Shown piece by piece: positions 57,456-64,000 of a stretch of DNA of 64,000 nt (position 1 is its first letter; each line of letters begins with the position of its first letter). The notes below the pieces were generated by a model. That model saw only the letters and a program-made list of their open reading frames with translations, was not told the origin of the DNA and ran no database searches. Source of the DNA: Phycisphaerae bacterium (lineage in GTDB: Bacteria; Planctomycetota; Phycisphaerae; UBA1845); the NCBI GenBank assembly GCA_029260075.1, contig JAJDDY010000041.1, forward strand, positions 1-64,000, read 5' to 3'. The position numbers and the translations under genes were made by a program.

Positions 57456-58772
57456 TCAAGCAATAGTGGCCGCATTGACCCTGATCTTCTTCAGGGATTC
57501 TTCCGCCAGCTCGCTAACGCGGTGGTCTTCATCGTTAAGAGTTTCGGATAGCCGCTCAACCACCGTCTCCGTCTCGACTCCAATTCCTCCCAGAGCATCA
57601 GTGCAGGCCGCGCGAACGCGCCAATTTTCGTGCCCAAGGAATCCGACGAGGATCGGAATAGCTTCGCTAGCGGCTGGACCAATTCTTCCCAGGGCGTAGG
57701 CAGATGGCCCAATATCATCTGTGTCTCCGCTCAACATCCGAATCAGCGCGGGCACCACTGCCTTTGCAACTGGTCCCATCTGGCCGAGGGTTCGCGCGGA
57801 GCGAAAGCGCACTTTGTATTTCGCATCAACCAGCGCTTCGCCGAGGGCTTCAACGGCCAACGAACCAATGCCGCATAATGCCTGGACTGCGAAATGTTGG
57901 ACGATCCTGTCCTTGTCGCCCAAGACGACGTTGAGCAGGAGAGAAAGCGTCGCTTGCGGCGCTGCCGTCACGATCTCCGCGAGCGCCTTGACACTGTTCT
58001 CGCAGACCTCCATGGAGGCAAGATCGTCCAGTGCCTCAATCAACGCAGGAACGGCATGTTCCGCCTCCGCCCCCATTCTGCCGAGCGCTTCGGCGGCTGT
58101 CGCGCGAATTTGTTCATCGTCGTCGCGAAGTGCGTGAATCAGGTCGGGTACTGCTTCTTTCGCCTCTGCTCCGAGCCTGCCAAGCGCCCAAATGGCACCG
58201 TCCCTGCCGGGTCTGCTTTCATCGCGAAGCACTGTGATGAGATCGGGAATCGCCCCCCGTGCTCCGATCTCGCCAAGGGCTATCGATGCCCAGCAACGAA
58301 CGCAATCATCATCCAGAACTCGCAAGAGGTCAGTTGCCGCCTGCGCTGCGCCCGGTCCGATCGCTCCGAGCGAACCTGCGGCAGTACGCCGAATGTCGTC
58401 ATCCTCGTCGGCCAGCAAGCCGATCAGGGCTGGTACGGCTTCGCATGCATCCGGTCCGATCTTGCCCAAGGCCTCGGCGACCAAGCGGTGGAATCCGGCT
58501 TCCCACTCCTCCGCTTCAGCCTGGTCCATCTCGGCATCGTCCTCCTCCTGCCCACAATCTACTTCCGCTGTCATGGTCAACGCTTTGATGAGAGCCGGGA
58601 CCGCATCCTTCGCATCCGCACCTAGATTACCGAGCGATTCCGCAGCGGCGTGACAAGCGTTTTCATCCTCTAACGCCTTGACGAGAGTTGGCACGCTATA
58701 GTCCCACTCCGCTCTCGCGGTAGAATCAATAGCCGTCCACTCTATGGGATGATGCGTCGGCGTCTTACTCAT
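57456..58772 (-). CDS. HEAT-repeat protein
   Basis: 438 residues from ATG 58772 (GGAG about 10 bases upstream). About a dozen tandem HEAT/PBS-type repeats of roughly 33 residues: AVPALIKAL, then GPDACEAVPALIGLLADEDDDIRRTAAGSLGAIG and similar. An alpha solenoid, probably protein-binding. Soluble. Its neighbours on the island are regulators and an AAA+ ATPase. Confidence 0.88.
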   Translation of the reverse strand: MSKTPTHHPIEWTAIDSTARAEWDYSVPTLVKALEDENACHAAAESLGNLGADAKDAVPALIKALTMTAEVDCGQEEDDAEMDQAEAEEWEAGFHRLVAEALGKIGPDACEAVPALIGLLADEDDDIRRTAAGSLGAIGPGAAQAATDLLRVLDDDCVRCWASIALGEIGARGAIPDLITVLRDESRPGRDGAIWALGRLGAEAKEAVPDLIHALRDDDEQIRATAAEALGRMGAEAEHAVPALIEALDDLASMEVCENSVKALAEIVTAAPQATLSLLLNVVLGDKDRIVQHFAVQALCGIGSLAVEALGEALVDAKYKVRFRSARTLGQMGPVAKAVVPALIRMLSGDTDDIGPSAYALGRIGPAASEAIPILVGFLGHENWRVRAACTDALGGIGVETETVVERLSETLNDEDHRVSELAEESLKKIRVNAATIA

Positions 58773-59222
58773 CAGCGTTACTCCGGGTCGGGTTCTCGCA
58801 CGGCAACCCACTTATCACATTCTTATGAGTGACATCGGCGGCTGGTGGCGGCAGCATGATCGGCACGACTCCGTAAACGGTGTGCGGAGAGTGGCGCTGC
58901 TCCAAAGATTCCTCAGCCCGTCGCCACAACCATCCGCGAAAAACAAACCCGATAATCGAGCGGAAGTGGATCAACCAAGTGCGGCTCAACACCAAGGTGG
59001 CCGCCTAACGCCGCGCGGAAGTGGTTCCGCACTATGCGGTCAGTCGCCCGAAACGCCCTATCCGAACGGCTCCTGGCTCCCCGCCACAATCACCACCCAC
59101 GAGAGAGGCCCTGGTCCCCCTCGCCCCGAACGCATCGGGAAAGGAGATGCCCGTATGTGGCAGGCATGCGTGGGATGCTACTCGGCCGCGTCGGGGACGA
59201 GTACGCCCAGCCACACGCTACG
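58773..59222. other. Intergenic region with palindrome
   Basis: 450 bases without a supported gene. A perfect palindrome GCGGAAGTGGTTCCGC (59015-59030) is repeated at 61285-61300, so the pair brackets the zinc-ribbon/AAA+ gene module. The two overlapping frames here (58765-58995 minus, 58825-59295 plus) show no protein-like pattern. Confidence 0.45.
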
Positions 59223-59705
59223 TCAGCACGCCGATGGCCCCCAACCACCCCCGACGACTTCAAACTCCCAGACATCCTTGAAGATGAGGGCGTGATCCAG
59301 CGTGTCCGCAGGTCGCATGTCCTTATTGTCGCGGTCGCGCCAGGCCTTGCGCGGCAGCGTGCCGACCACGACGTACTCGCTGCCGATGATCGCGGGATCG
59401 CGACTCTCGAACGCCATCGCCATCAGCGACTCGATCTCCGCTCGGCGTACGATTATCAGATCGCAGCCGACGCAGTAACGGCACTGCTTGTTCAGGATGA
59501 ATAGCTGGTCCGGTTCGATGTGAATCACCAGCGCAAACTTGCGTACCTTTGTCTTAGCGTCGCACTTTGGACATTTCGTGAAGGCCATATCCTCGTAGGG
59601 GTTGAGGAAGAATCGATGCCCGACCCCATCTACCGGCGAGCCAGCTATGCGATTCGATTTGGATTCTGCAGCCGCAGATTCCGTTTTCGGTCTCTGGTTC
59701 CTCAA
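59223..59705 (-). CDS. Zinc-ribbon protein of unknown function
   Basis: 160 residues. HRFFLNPYEDMAFTKCPKCDAKTKVRKFALVIHIEPD then CRYCVGCD make a zinc-ribbon with two CxxC pairs (CPKC, CRYC). I have seen the FLNPY..xxFTKCPKC pattern in hypothetical proteins of other bacteria but know no function. Its start overlaps the stop of the AAA+ gene by four bases, so the two form a unit. Confidence 0.8.
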   Translation of the reverse strand: MRNQRPKTESAAAESKSNRIAGSPVDGVGHRFFLNPYEDMAFTKCPKCDAKTKVRKFALVIHIEPDQLFILNKQCRYCVGCDLIIVRRAEIESLMAMAFESRDPAIIGSEYVVVGTLPRKAWRDRDNKDMRPADTLDHALIFKDVWEFEVVGGGWGPSAC

Positions 59706-61174
59706 ACTTCTTCACCAGCAGCGTTGTTATGCTCCAACTGAGACAGCCAGTAGCACGCCAGCGGTGCAGGAATCTTCAAGACGCTGGTACCGCCAGCATC
59801 GTCGTCGGCAGAGTGCGCCTTCGTCTGAATCATGCAGACCTCGAAGTCGGCCATGTCGCGTGTGATGACATACGCGCGGAAGATTTGCTTCTGGTCGCAC
59901 AGCATTCGTAGCCCTTTGAGGCTCGCAACATTGACGGTGCTTTCGCTGTATTTGACCTCGAACGGGATCAGCTTGCCGCCGACCTCGGCCACGATGTCCA
60001 CCTCGTGGTCTTTCTTGCCCCGCCAATACGAGAAGCCGACGCTAATCTGGTAGTAGTGGCTGAACATGTGCTTGAAGAAGGCTGTCTCGACGGCTGCGCC
60101 CAATCGCGTCCTATCTTCTAGGAGCGCCTTACCCTTGAGAAGCACACTTCCAGCGATGGCGGCGTCGGCCAGGTAAATTTTGTATCGCGCACGCAGAATC
60201 TCCTTGCCGTATCCAAACGGCGGCAGCTTGTAGATCAGGTGTGCCGCTTCCAGTAACGCAAGGAAGTTGTTGACGGTTGGCTTCTTCAAGTCAAGGTTGT
60301 TGCATAGCTGGGGCATGTCGAGAATGCCACCGTCGTGCAGGCACAGGTAGAGGAACGTCTTTTCGAGTTCCAGCACTCGTCGCACACCGAACAGCGCCGT
60401 CATGTCCCGTTTGAGAACTTTGTCAACGATGTCCTCACGCAGCAACCGCTGCGCCGTCCCGATGTTCTCCACCTGGGCCGTCTGCGGAAACCCGCCGCGC
60501 AAAAGATACTCGTGGAAGTGCGCGACCAAAGGCCGGGCAGTTTCTCCGACGCGAATGCGGTCGGGCTGCGACCAGTCGAATATCTCGGTGAGCGATGAAA
60601 CAGACGGTAGCTTTGGCGTTTCAATCTTCTTGATTTGCAGGTACTCGAAGAAGGACAAAGTTGGAAGTTTGATTGTGTGCCAGCGTCCGACACCAGACTC
60701 CGTTCCATCCGTGTTGATCGGGATGGCCGAGCCGGTGACGGCGATCCGGCGCTTCTTCTCGAAGTCAGCCTGGAGCTTGAGCCAAGTCGGCCACTCGCTC
60801 GTATTCTGGATTTCGTCGAGCAGCAGGTACTCCAACCCTTCGGGCGGCGGCTGTAGTTCGTGCCAGAGATCAAGCACGCCTTCGAGTCCGATCAGCTTCA
60901 TTAGAGGGTGGTCGAAAGTGACGTAGAGGATTTGCTCAGGGCGGATGCCTTTGCGGAGTAGCTCGTCGATGGCTTGAAGAAGCAGGGTAGTCTTGCCGAC
61001 CTGACGCGCCCCGCTGAGCTGGACGGCACGGGGGGCCGGGGGATCGGTCAGCCACTCCATCAACTGCGGAAAGATTGCCCGCCGCCACGGCGGAAGGTCT
61101 GGAACCTCCCCGCCATCCCACCAGGGGTTGTATTGCCGGAGAACCGCGAAAAGCTCATTCTTGGATGCGATCAT
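59702..61174 (-). CDS. AAA+ ATPase with DUF4143/nuclease-like C-terminus
   Basis: 490 residues. Walker A is GARQVGKTTLLLQ (about residues 54-66), Walker B LLLDEIQN, with TGSA as sensor. The C-terminal half carries a winged-helix/DUF4143 region and a PD-(D/E)xK-like motif (DHEVDIVAEVGGKLIPFEVKY), so nuclease activity is possible. Family members occur in mobile elements and with toxin-antitoxin or defence genes. It partners the zinc-ribbon gene (ATGA overlap). The pair is bracketed by two copies of the palindrome GCGGAAGTGGTTCCGC. Confidence 0.88.
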   Translation of the reverse strand: MIASKNELFAVLRQYNPWWDGGEVPDLPPWRRAIFPQLMEWLTDPPAPRAVQLSGARQVGKTTLLLQAIDELLRKGIRPEQILYVTFDHPLMKLIGLEGVLDLWHELQPPPEGLEYLLLDEIQNTSEWPTWLKLQADFEKKRRIAVTGSAIPINTDGTESGVGRWHTIKLPTLSFFEYLQIKKIETPKLPSVSSLTEIFDWSQPDRIRVGETARPLVAHFHEYLLRGGFPQTAQVENIGTAQRLLREDIVDKVLKRDMTALFGVRRVLELEKTFLYLCLHDGGILDMPQLCNNLDLKKPTVNNFLALLEAAHLIYKLPPFGYGKEILRARYKIYLADAAIAGSVLLKGKALLEDRTRLGAAVETAFFKHMFSHYYQISVGFSYWRGKKDHEVDIVAEVGGKLIPFEVKYSESTVNVASLKGLRMLCDQKQIFRAYVITRDMADFEVCMIQTKAHSADDDAGGTSVLKIPAPLACYWLSQLEHNNAAGEEV

Positions 61175-61391: not shown

Positions 61392-61427
61392 TTGACACCA
61401 CACGGACCGCCGGTAAGATGATCTTAC
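61392..61427 (+). promoter_or_regulatory. Promoter and overlapping palindromic operator of the ACP-XRE-ImmA operon
   Basis: TTGACA (61392-61397) is followed after 16 bases by TAAGAT (61414-61419). The -10 is embedded in the perfect palindrome GTAAGATGATCTTAC (61413-61427). A further half-site GTAAGA lies at 61434-61439, just before the Shine-Dalgarno AAGGAG (61439-61444). Binding of the XRE protein encoded two genes downstream would block the promoter, the standard design of ImmR/ImmA-like switches. Confidence 0.65.
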
Positions 61428-61451
61428 GGTTCAGTAAGAAGGAGTAATCGC

Positions 61452-61754
61452 ATGACTCGAAAACAAGTGGAGGCCGCTGTGATCGGCGCGATCGCCGAGA
61501 TTCAAGAGATGAGCGGAAGGGAGTGCCTCAACATCGATGCGAAAACGATACCAATCTGCGATGTACCGGGGTTTGACAGTCTGAATGGCTTAGAGGCAAC
61601 GGTCGAGATCGCCGGGCGACTGAAGATGGAAATCCCCAACGAAACGAACATCTTCACGAACGAGGCTGGTGATAGAGCGTTGTCGGTGTGCGAGATCGGG
61701 GACCGCTTGATGGAGATCGCGGCCAGTAGTGAGGGTGTTGCTCATGTCGAGTGA
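61452..61754 (+). CDS. Acyl-carrier-protein-like domain protein
   Basis: 100 residues, AAGGAG 7 bases upstream. Helical, with DVPGFDSLNGLEATVEIAGRLKMEIPNET, where FDSL is the phosphopantetheine attachment Ser pattern of ACPs. Stand-alone ACP-like protein without a synthase nearby. It starts the operon ahead of the XRE regulator and overlaps it by 11 bases. Whether it carries phosphopantetheine or only has the fold is open. Confidence 0.75.
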   Translation: MTRKQVEAAVIGAIAEIQEMSGRECLNIDAKTIPICDVPGFDSLNGLEATVEIAGRLKMEIPNETNIFTNEAGDRALSVCEIGDRLMEIAASSEGVAHVE

Positions 61755-62091
61755 GGATAGGACGAGCAGGACTGCAATTGCCGCCCGCTTGCGGATGGCG
61801 CGTGAAGCAGCCGGACTGTCACAAGGCCAGGCTGCAAAACTGATGGACATGCACCGTCCAACCGTGTCCGAAATCGAGGCGGGGCGTCGTCGGCTGGCGG
61901 CAGATGAGATGGCCAAGTTTGCTAAGACTTATGGGATTGGCGTCGCGTGGCTCATCGGCGAGAACGATGATAGCGCGGATGATGATGTGAGCGACCGAAT
62001 CAAACTCGCGGCAAGACAGCTAAGCGGTCTCGATGACGAAGATCTCGACAAACTTATGCGTCTTTTCCAATCCATGCGGGGGGCCGAATGA
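61744..62091 (+). CDS. XRE-family regulator
   Basis: 115 residues from ATG 61744 (GAGGG 8 bases upstream). HTH in residues about 10-65: AARLRMAREAAGLSQGQAAKLMDMHRPTVSEIEAGRRRLAADEMAKFAKTYG. The C-terminal 45 residues are acidic and helical (LDDEDLDKLMRLFQSMRG). Overlaps the previous gene and is followed by the ImmA/IrrE gene with a four-base overlap, a pairing typical of an antirepressor-controlled repressor. Confidence 0.92.
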   Translation: MSSEDRTSRTAIAARLRMAREAAGLSQGQAAKLMDMHRPTVSEIEAGRRRLAADEMAKFAKTYGIGVAWLIGENDDSADDDVSDRIKLAARQLSGLDDEDLDKLMRLFQSMRGAE

Positions 62092-62969
62092 TGGTCTTGG
62101 CCTCTCGAAAGGACCTTGTGCTGAGTGCGATCAGCCAGGCGCTACGTTTGCGAAAAGCGGCGAACATCCCGCTCTCGGATGCCGTGTGCCCATTTGATCT
62201 TGCAGAGCAGCACGGCGTCGAGGTTCGTTTTCAGGCACTTGCGAGTTTTGACGGTATGCGTGGTCGGGCCTCAGACGGTTCCGCGATCATCGTGTCATCA
62301 CTTCGGCCTCCAGGTCGCAGAAGCTTCACATGCGCGCACGAACTTGGCCACGAGGTATTCGATCACGGCGTTCAGTTTGATGAACTGCTTGGCTGTCGGG
62401 ACGCGCCACGCCAGAATGAACCGGAGGAAATCATCGCCGACGCATTCGCCGGATTTCTACTTATGCCGAAGTCCGCGGTGGAGCGTGCGCTCGTGGTCCG
62501 AGGATGGCAACTCGGCTCATGCACTCCTCGTGAAGTGTATGCGCTGGCTAGTTGGCTCGGTGTTGGATACACGTCCCTGTTATGGCATTTGCAATGCGGG
62601 TTGAAGTTGCTGGGAGCCAGTCGCGCGAACGAATTGCGAAGAGTGCGACTGCCTCGACTTCGCAAAGAGTTTCTGGGCTATGATTGCCCCGGCGAACTTG
62701 TAATCGTGGACTCGCATTGGTGTGGACGTCCTGTTGACATCCAGGTCAACGACGTCGCACTGTTGCCGTCAGGCGGTCGAGCGGAGGGAATCTGCGTTGA
62801 GGCTGATCCGGATGCAACGGGCCAGGTGTTGGTCAGAGGTGTTACGCCAGGCATTGGTCGTTTGATTCTGGAGGAATCTGGCTGGTCAGGTTTCGTCCGG
62901 GTGTCTCGCCGAGATTATGTCGGTCGAAACAAGTACCGGCACCTTGAGGAAATACAGGATGACTGCTGA
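62088..62969 (+). CDS. ImmA/IrrE family metallopeptidase
   Basis: 293 residues. Zinc protease motif CAHELGHEVFDHG (HExxH) and a later ADAFAGFLLMP Glu-containing helix. The C-terminal 100 residues form a second, beta-rich domain (VIVDSHWCGRPVDIQVNDVALLP ... GFVRVSRRDYVGRNK) that is not part of the minimal ImmA fold. By analogy with ImmA it should cleave the partner XRE protein in response to a signal and so induce the operon. Confidence 0.92.
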   Translation: MMVLASRKDLVLSAISQALRLRKAANIPLSDAVCPFDLAEQHGVEVRFQALASFDGMRGRASDGSAIIVSSLRPPGRRSFTCAHELGHEVFDHGVQFDELLGCRDAPRQNEPEEIIADAFAGFLLMPKSAVERALVVRGWQLGSCTPREVYALASWLGVGYTSLLWHLQCGLKLLGASRANELRRVRLPRLRKEFLGYDCPGELVIVDSHWCGRPVDIQVNDVALLPSGGRAEGICVEADPDATGQVLVRGVTPGIGRLILEESGWSGFVRVSRRDYVGRNKYRHLEEIQDDC

Positions 62970-63753
62970 GCAATTCGTCGTGACTGGCCCGAACCTCTCG
63001 CATGTATGGGCGCAGGTTTTTCTTCGGTCCACAGCCGTCGGTGTTGGAGATTCTTGCCCCTTGGTGGTTACGATCACTGGATTCGATGATGACGGGAAGG
63101 TGGAGGAAGATACTACAATTCGCGAAGCACTGGATGATTCTCTGGAGACTCTCAAAACAGGGCTCGATTGTCGGCAAGTGGCAAGCACGATTTTTCCGGC
63201 CAGCCTGTGGAACCCTGACCGTCCTCGTGAAGAATTGTACGCCCGTTTCAACCGGATTTGGCCAAAGATCGCAAAGTGCTCGCGCAACCGTCGCGGCCAC
63301 TATTTCAGACGCCTTACGAAATTCGGCACCGGTCGTCACGCAAATCAACTCGAATACATCATCAAAACTTATCGCGGAGGAAACCATCGCCGAAGTGCGC
63401 TCCAGGCTGCCCTCCTTGACCCGGCGCTCGACCACACAGATAGTCGTCAACAGGGTTTCCCGTGCTTGCAACAGGTCTCATTCATTCCGCTTGGCAATGG
63501 CGAAATGTGCGTCACTGGTTTCTACGGCTTACAGTACTTGGTGAAGCGAGCCTATGGCAACTACCTTGGGCTGTGCAACCTTGGCCAGTTCATGGCACAC
63601 GAGATGGGCTTACGATTGGCGCGCGTCACCTGCATAGCTTCAGCGGCCAATTTGGATTTTACGAAAACCGGAATGAGCAGTCTCGCTACCAGTGTCCGTA
63701 AGGTGCTTCCCGTAACCGAATTCCAGACAGATGGCACGGGAGTTCTGCATTGA
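62959..63753 (+). CDS. Divergent thymidylate-synthase-fold protein
   Basis: 264 residues from ATG 62959 (GAGGA 8 bases upstream), the length of E. coli ThyA. The region NQLEYIIKTYRGGNHRRSALQAALLDP then GFPCLQQVSFIPLGNGEMCVTGFYGLQYLVKRAYGNYLGLCNLG aligns with ThyA SRR..APCH..FQF...L.C.L.QRS.D.FLGLPFN; the catalytic Cys (PC) is kept, but the QRS.D dUMP-phosphate and D/H segments are altered. Function therefore uncertain: a nucleotide C5-modifying enzyme on a different base or nucleotide is plausible. Confidence 0.7.
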   Translation: MTAEQFVVTGPNLSHVWAQVFLRSTAVGVGDSCPLVVTITGFDDDGKVEEDTTIREALDDSLETLKTGLDCRQVASTIFPASLWNPDRPREELYARFNRIWPKIAKCSRNRRGHYFRRLTKFGTGRHANQLEYIIKTYRGGNHRRSALQAALLDPALDHTDSRQQGFPCLQQVSFIPLGNGEMCVTGFYGLQYLVKRAYGNYLGLCNLGQFMAHEMGLRLARVTCIASAANLDFTKTGMSSLATSVRKVLPVTEFQTDGTGVLH

Positions 63754-64000
63754 ATCTTGGTGACCGTATGTTCGTGTTTGAAGGCCCAGACGGCGTGGGC
63801 AAGACCGAGTTGGCGCGCCGGCTTGCTGGCACGCTCCGTGGCCAAGGCGTGGAATGCGAGATGATTGCTTTCCCCGGAAACGAACCACGTACGCTCGGTA
63901 GTCATGTTTACCGCATACATCATGAACCAGCTTCGCTGGAGATCGACAATCTCCACGCCGCCAGTCTCCAGACCCTGCACATTGCCGCACACATCGACGA
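63750..64000 (+). CDS. Thymidylate-kinase-like P-loop protein (truncated at window end)
   Basis: TTG 63750 has GGGAG 7 bases upstream and overlaps the previous stop; ATG 63768 is the alternative. VFEGPDGVGKTELARRLA is the dTMP kinase P-loop, and FPGNEPRTLGSHVYRIH resembles the DR-type donor/phosphate segment. The 3' part lies outside the window. It follows the thymidylate-synthase-like gene, so the two probably act on the same nucleotide. Confidence 0.75.
   Translation, partial: MNLGDRMFVFEGPDGVGKTELARRLAGTLRGQGVECEMIAFPGNEPRTLGSHVYRIHHEPASLEIDNLHAASLQTLHIAAHID

Follow-up and report, generated by a model that had tools for sequence, protein, structure and literature searches.

What does an operon that joins a carrier protein, a repressor, a metallopeptidase and relatives of thymidylate enzymes do for its host? 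We met this question at the end of a 64,000-nucleotide stretch of DNA from a Phycisphaerae bacterium (GenBank assembly GCA_029260075.1, contig JAJDDY010000041.1, positions 1-64000; hereafter the window), which is part of a longer contig (120081 bases) in a 4.92 Mb genome of 93 contigs. An original prediction, made from the window alone, had described five tightly overlapping genes as a possible inducible module for nucleotide or DNA modification, perhaps in phage defence. The five open reading frames (ORFs) were indeed found at those places, on one strand and with overlapping ends, and the sequence past position 64000 showed that the operon continues there with the rest of gene 5, then a second thymidylate synthase (ThyA)-type gene (TS2), and is followed by a type I restriction-modification (RM) set. 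Its parts are listed below, with positions past 64000 given as window-equivalent coordinates.

61392..61397, + strand: -35 box TTGACA of the operon promoter, from sequence
61413..61427, + strand: palindromic operator GTAAGAT-G-ATCTTAC over the -10 box TAAGAT (61414-61419), presumed XRE site
61452..61754, + strand: acyl carrier protein (ACP)-like carrier, 100 amino acids; Ser43 codon 61578-61580, candidate phosphopantetheine site
61729..62091, + strand: XRE-type repressor, CapH-like (HTH_3 E=5e-14)
62088..62969, + strand: ImmA/IrrE metallopeptidase with a conserved C-terminal domain (Peptidase_M78 PF06114 E=6e-12; CapP model E=3e-18)
62917..63753, + strand: TS1, divergent protein of thymidylate synthase fold (TIGR03283 E=3e-8); Cys183 codon 63463-63465, Asn215 codon 63559-63561
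63750..65432 (63750..64000 inside the window), + strand: gene 5, 560 amino acids, thymidylate kinase (TMK) fused to HMUDK_hel (PF02223 E=2e-13; PF18723 E=3e-109)
65390-66442, + strand: TS2, overlapping the end of gene 5 (PF00303 E=2e-18)

The first question was whether these genes belong together. We scanned 84,980 species genomes for the PF18723 family and kept the best 80 of 523 relatives; together with loci from a search of the phylum, and with near-duplicates taken out, these gave 84 distinct loci, in which the core genes were located with our own profiles built from the operon proteins. Because relatives were ranked by likeness, the sample is tilted towards loci resembling that of the window. 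XRE, ImmA, TS1 and PF18723 were present together in 65 of the 84 loci and the carrier protein accompanied them in 64; several of the others end at contig breaks. In every one of the 64 complete loci the order and strand of the genes are identical, with median gaps of -4, -4, -32 and -1 bases. Conservation of order, strand and spacing on this scale is not chance, and that the core is one real system, as had been proposed, is beyond doubt.

The PF18723 loci span 14 named phyla, and their tree requires 22 phylum changes against a minimum of 13, a pattern in line with horizontal transfer, though no proof of it. Loci L013 (whose genome belongs to the phylum of the window) and L033 have PF18723 proteins with identical C-termini. 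In 392 genomes drawn evenly from the phylum, PF18723 occurred in 7 and a strong TS1 match in 4, and all four of the latter carry PF18723 close by in the same operon order; the ThyA-like gene thus keeps its link to the other core genes outside the window. Among 60 closer relatives, with the window genome counted, TS1 occurs in only 4, and the operon is therefore patchy.

A further shared element lies ahead of the carrier gene. The promoter has a -35 hexamer that begins at 61392 and a -10 hexamer within the palindrome at 61413-61427. The motif GTAAGA-N3-TCTTAC, spotted in the window and by an inverted-repeat search and then counted in those same relatives, has no mismatch in 44 of 64 loci and at most two in 62 of 64. 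A TTGACA-like -35 hexamer stands 14-19 bp before the -10 box at 41 of the 62 operator sites. No perfect copy turned up in the shuffles or in 1165 stretches of 200 bp drawn at random from these loci, and the 4.92 Mb genome holds a single one. Similarly, loci lacking XRE and TS1 gave no operator match within one mismatch. We presume that XRE binds the palindrome. In viral contigs, 23 stretches showed the promoter and operator pattern and none of them had the core genes; on its own the pattern is therefore no marker of the operon in such contigs. Four viral contigs (L202, L209, L212 and L219) contain 4-5 copies of GTAAGA-N3-TCTTAC each, with the operon absent; perhaps an unrelated phage repressor uses the same site.

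The operator raises the question of how the operon would be opened. The HExxH motif and third Glu of ImmA are invariant in 36 relatives, and its profile matches the structures of IrrE and CapP. As in the CapP/CapH layout, a helix-turn-helix repressor adjoins an HExxH metallopeptidase ahead of effector genes. Once activated by single-stranded DNA (ssDNA), CapP cuts its repressor, CapH (PMC13373217). By this likeness, a role of ImmA as antirepressor protease is plausible.

Turning to the effectors, the carrier family evolves fast, its members sharing 20-62% identity with the protein of the window, and its sole invariant residue is a Ser (67/67 relatives) in a DSL-type motif. In the PDB the family profile picks out acyl carrier proteins (E=5e-7), and PF00550 matches 7 of 44 members, although the protein of the window alone gives no match. 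An invariant Ser in such a motif together with a carrier family match is what is expected of an acyl or peptidyl carrier. An AcpS-type holo-ACP synthase gene stands beside 24 loci; it was first seen as an annotated acpS on the Sinorhizobium fredii plasmid NZ_CP024308. For phage SP-15, an acyl carrier protein reductase is listed among the genes believed to be involved in its dihydroxypentyluracil (PMC5977210), which may be a precedent for the use of carriers in modifying thymine.

TS1 gives no Pfam match and is recognized instead by TIGR03283. Its AlphaFold2 model (pLDDT 90) has a thymidylate synthase fold, with Z scores of 14.5-17.5 to entries of that fold, the nearest being MilA (17.5) and the flavin-dependent dCMP hydroxylases 9iqc (17.4) and 9iqu (17.2). 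The original prediction held that this ThyA relative retains the catalytic Cys but no longer has residues that bind deoxyuridine monophosphate (dUMP), and the alignments agree. Cys183, the catalytic Cys, and Asn215 are invariant in 56 rows, and the HxY motif (the ThyA sugar contacts H207 and Y209) is missing. In a weak profile comparison with TS2 (hhalign probability 26%, E=7e-4), Asn215 aligns with TS2 Asn188, which we take to be the uracil-reading Asn177 of ThyA, and ThyA R166, S167 and D169 are replaced by Gly204, Leu205 and Tyr207. The helix from Asn215 to the place of ThyA His207 is of equal length and gapless. TS1 thus lacks the phosphate and sugar contacts to dUMP.

TS2 differs in this respect. 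Its Cys, the Arg-Ser phosphate contacts, the uracil Asn and the sugar His and Tyr are all invariant in 24 rows. Its best PDB relative is likewise MilA, and since TS2 has an Asn at the place of MilA's Asp, uracil is the likely base. By these residues TS2 is a dUMP hydroxymethylase-type enzyme with a predicted hydroxymethyl product. Could the operon simply supply thymidine monophosphate (dTMP)? TS2 is the only PF00303 match of the genome and the host has its own ThyX for dTMP, and simple supply was rejected, in agreement with the original prediction, which had argued against it from the lost dUMP-binding residues of the ThyA relative.

Gene 5 had been called TMK-like; the TMK domain is there, but the protein is no plain TMK, for it continues past 64000 into a PF18723 domain that scores 365 bits against a cut-off of 25 and covers positions 1-280 of 281. 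This domain is predicted to phosphorylate 5-hydroxymethyldeoxyuridine (5hmdU) in DNA. The family is shared with 482 phage records, among them Salmonella, Pseudomonas, Vibrio and Bacillus phages, and the best rows show about 26-33% identity. In phages M6, ViI and phi W-14 a kinase phosphorylates 5hmdU in DNA and substitution follows (PMC6449724). The connection with 5hmdU could be drawn because the PF18723 domain and TS2 came to light past position 64000, outside the view of the original prediction.

After the core, the loci diverge into three kinds of supply module, counted on 87 loci before the three near-duplicates were removed. TS2 is present in 31, 29 of which also have TMK. A MazG-type pyrophosphohydrolase is found in 48 (together with TS2 in just 5), and a radical-SAM protein in 9. 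A gene of dCTP-deaminase (DCD)/dUTPase fold lies near 30. Two of these last proteins (L015 10913-11602 and L013 8783-9616) have a C-terminal hydrophobic stretch and, by eye, seem to have lost the deaminase Glu. PF18723 also occurs in a second context, lacking the ACP-XRE-ImmA-TS1 core, with TIR-like, Nmad2, DCD, TMK and TS2 genes (L032, L049, L055, L084, L012 and L016). The names TIR-like, Nmad2, MazG, DCD and radical-SAM were given by reading the sequences, some by plasmid-record annotation, and not by a Pfam scan.

What, then, would the operon do? We lean, with somewhat better than even confidence, towards a self-regulated, horizontally spread module that makes a 5-substituted uracil or thymine nucleotide or DNA base on a phage or DNA-damage signal, most likely against phages. 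The inducible modification module first suggested thus stays the best reading, given the conserved core, the CapP/CapH-type pair and the host ThyX; the PF18723 family shared with phages, the E. coli units reported as validated and the defence genes in the flanks of the loci, all taken together, speak for it as well. By likeness to CapP and CapH, XRE would keep the operon off by sitting on the palindrome that covers its own -10 box, until ImmA, probably activated by ssDNA, brings about cleavage of XRE and opens the operon. Judged by enzyme family, TS2 in the variant of the window would turn dUMP into 5-hydroxymethyl-dUMP, and the TMK domain would phosphorylate it towards the triphosphate, so that 5hmdU could enter replicating DNA; in other variants the MazG-type pyrophosphohydrolase or the radical-SAM enzyme would replace this supply. 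The PF18723 domain and TS1, together with the phosphopantetheinylated carrier, would then elaborate the base. TS1 may form a Cys adduct and read the pyrimidine through Asn215, with no need of a free 5'-monophosphate, while the group to be added would come from the carrier or be held by it. In the end the phage might be stopped by the modified nucleotide or DNA, or its DNA be marked for a neighbouring nuclease, a step suggested by association and by the relatives reported as validated in E. coli (see below). More tentatively, and as a possibility rather than an expectation, TS1 could be a thymidylate synthase-fold enzyme that takes its group from the carrier instead of folate and acts on a pyrimidine that is no free 5'-monophosphate (in DNA or otherwise held), at the centre of a widespread ImmA-switched immunity; this would be a thiotemplated hypermodification of bases.

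Several points weigh against the reading of an anti-phage modification module. The operon is known from sequence alone, and its chemistry and product are what we infer. No carrier-charging enzyme was found when sought among the recurrent neighbours. TS2 is absent from over half of the loci and TMK from many, which leaves the source of 5hmdU there unaccounted for. The residue register between TS1 and TS2 is supported but not proven, and in a structure search of gene 5 the TMK domain filled the whole match list, which therefore speaks for that part and not for the PF18723 fold. The defence-island context favours the reading but was counted with no matched control set: 85 sampled flanking proteins include pAgo, type I methylases, DISARM DrmD, AriAB, SoFic, Cas5e and MADS parts (PADLOC). 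A further point in favour comes with a limit of its own. The text and legends of the DefensePredictor study (2026) place thymidylate synthase and 5-hydroxymethyluracil kinase domains in newly validated E. coli anti-phage units, and the legend of its Fig. 3C also lists dNMP kinase and NMAD (PMC13092281). That thymidylate synthase, dNMP kinase and 5hmdU kinase share one unit is what we infer from these passages, and the counterpart of the E. coli system validated there may be the TIR-Nmad2-TS2 context of PF18723, not the core. E. coli genomes searched by DNA similarity with the PF18723 genes of two relatives gave no match.

Would the same parts serve another end better? The operon might act like the prokaryotic viperins and make a poison nucleotide, with a free but modified deoxynucleoside triphosphate blocking the polymerases of phages and no enzymatic work on DNA. 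The TMK-type kinase, TS2, MazG and the dCTP-deaminase-like genes all act on free nucleotides, and a radical-SAM gene replaces TS2 in some loci. However, PF18723, the domain used to find the loci, is shared with phages that modify bases once these are part of the DNA, and TS1 no longer has the residues for holding a free 5'-monophosphate; we consider this explanation unlikely.

Quite improbable, in our view, is a counter-measure against phages whose DNA already contains 5hmdU or is hypermodified, in which PF18723 and TS1 would act on the phage base and TS2 would be unneeded in most loci. It would account for the roughly half of the loci that lack TS2 and TMK, yet keep the ACP-XRE-ImmA-TS1-PF18723 core. 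On the other hand, the ThyA-type enzyme in 31 loci, with a kinase in 29 of them, would be needless, and hosts of 14 phyla are unlikely all to face such phages.

XRE/ImmA pairs are known to control integrative elements, and the operon could accordingly be an anti-restriction module with which a mobile element or phage modifies its own DNA, the pair acting as a switch of the integrative and conjugative element type. TS1 does occur on 5 plasmids and an integrase gene lies near some loci. We nevertheless give this explanation very little credence: TS1 is nearly absent from viral contigs, no mobility gene recurs among the neighbours of the loci, and AcpS is the only widely shared extra family. A phage or prophage origin of the core was rejected on the same viral count, 3 TS1 matches. 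Finally, ordinary thymidylate supply or a nucleoside natural-product operon, which the ThyA and TMK relatives, the carrier protein and the closeness of TS2 to MilA (an enzyme of mildiomycin synthesis) could bring to mind, is hardly credible, since the host has ThyX, TS1 has lost its dUMP-binding residues, no transporter or tailoring genes recur and the repressor/protease control is kept across phyla.

Around the operon, the type I RM set lies 3' of TS2 on the same strand and consists of HsdR, HsdS, an ORF lacking assignment, a HATPase and HsdM. Two genes sit inside this set (L002 10653-13870, window-equivalent 71652-74869): one ORF that matches no Pfam family, and a GHKL ATPase whose C-terminus is weakly Shedu-like (PF14082 E=0.003). 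Directly upstream of the operon and divergent from it is an AAA_14/DUF4143 ATPase (59702-61174, - strand), which matches the PADLOC candidate PDC-S01 (E=3e-50). HEAT/PBS-lyase-like repeat proteins, alike by eye, flank the island on both sides (57456-58811, - strand, and L002 19262-19999, - strand).

How new is this system? The original prediction knew of none so composed. We found no description of the ACP-XRE-ImmA-TS1 core with its operator, in a search that did not cover key literature of 2013 on base-modification neighbourhoods, where an earlier mention is possible. Among the systems of PADLOC 2023, neither TS1 nor ACP matched a family up to E=1, and TS2 matched none up to E=0.01. The claim of novelty may therefore stand for the core and operator but not for all of the chemistry: phage hypermodification shares the domain family, and thymidylate synthase and 5hmdU kinase domains are already reported in defence in the passages of the DefensePredictor study cited above.

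Thymidine hypermodification is a known shield of phages, and the same families of chemistry now appear in repressor-controlled bacterial operons of many phyla. The carrier with its invariant Ser, AcpS in 24 loci and a thymidylate synthase relative devoid of the usual dUMP binding point to a base-modification reaction of which we know no example. Because the operator is conserved and the core compact, induction, product and protection can all be tested directly.

Set beside known systems, the operon resembles each in part. With the thymidine hypermodification of M6, ViI and phi W-14 it shares a dUMP hydroxymethylase-type enzyme, a kinase and a PF18723-type domain; it is, however, bacterial and repressor-controlled, includes a carrier and TS1, and has a PF18723 domain at most about 33% identical in the best rows. 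The E. coli units of DefensePredictor contain the same enzyme families in phage-protecting units, whereas the text and legends of that study name no carrier, XRE/ImmA pair or TS1 (PMC13092281). TS1 has the fold of the CMP hydroxymethylase MilA and of the dCMP hydroxylases 9iqc and 9iqu (Z about 17), yet its identity to them is only 11-13%, its phosphate and sugar contacts are gone, and it goes together with a carrier protein. As in the CapP-CapH control of CBASS and other immune operons, a repressor and a metallopeptidase whose profile matches CapP stand adjacent and ahead of the effectors; in contrast to CapP-CapH, the pair is a family of its own, with a conserved operator and a C-terminal domain, the carrier gene precedes it, and activation by ssDNA would be carried over by analogy.

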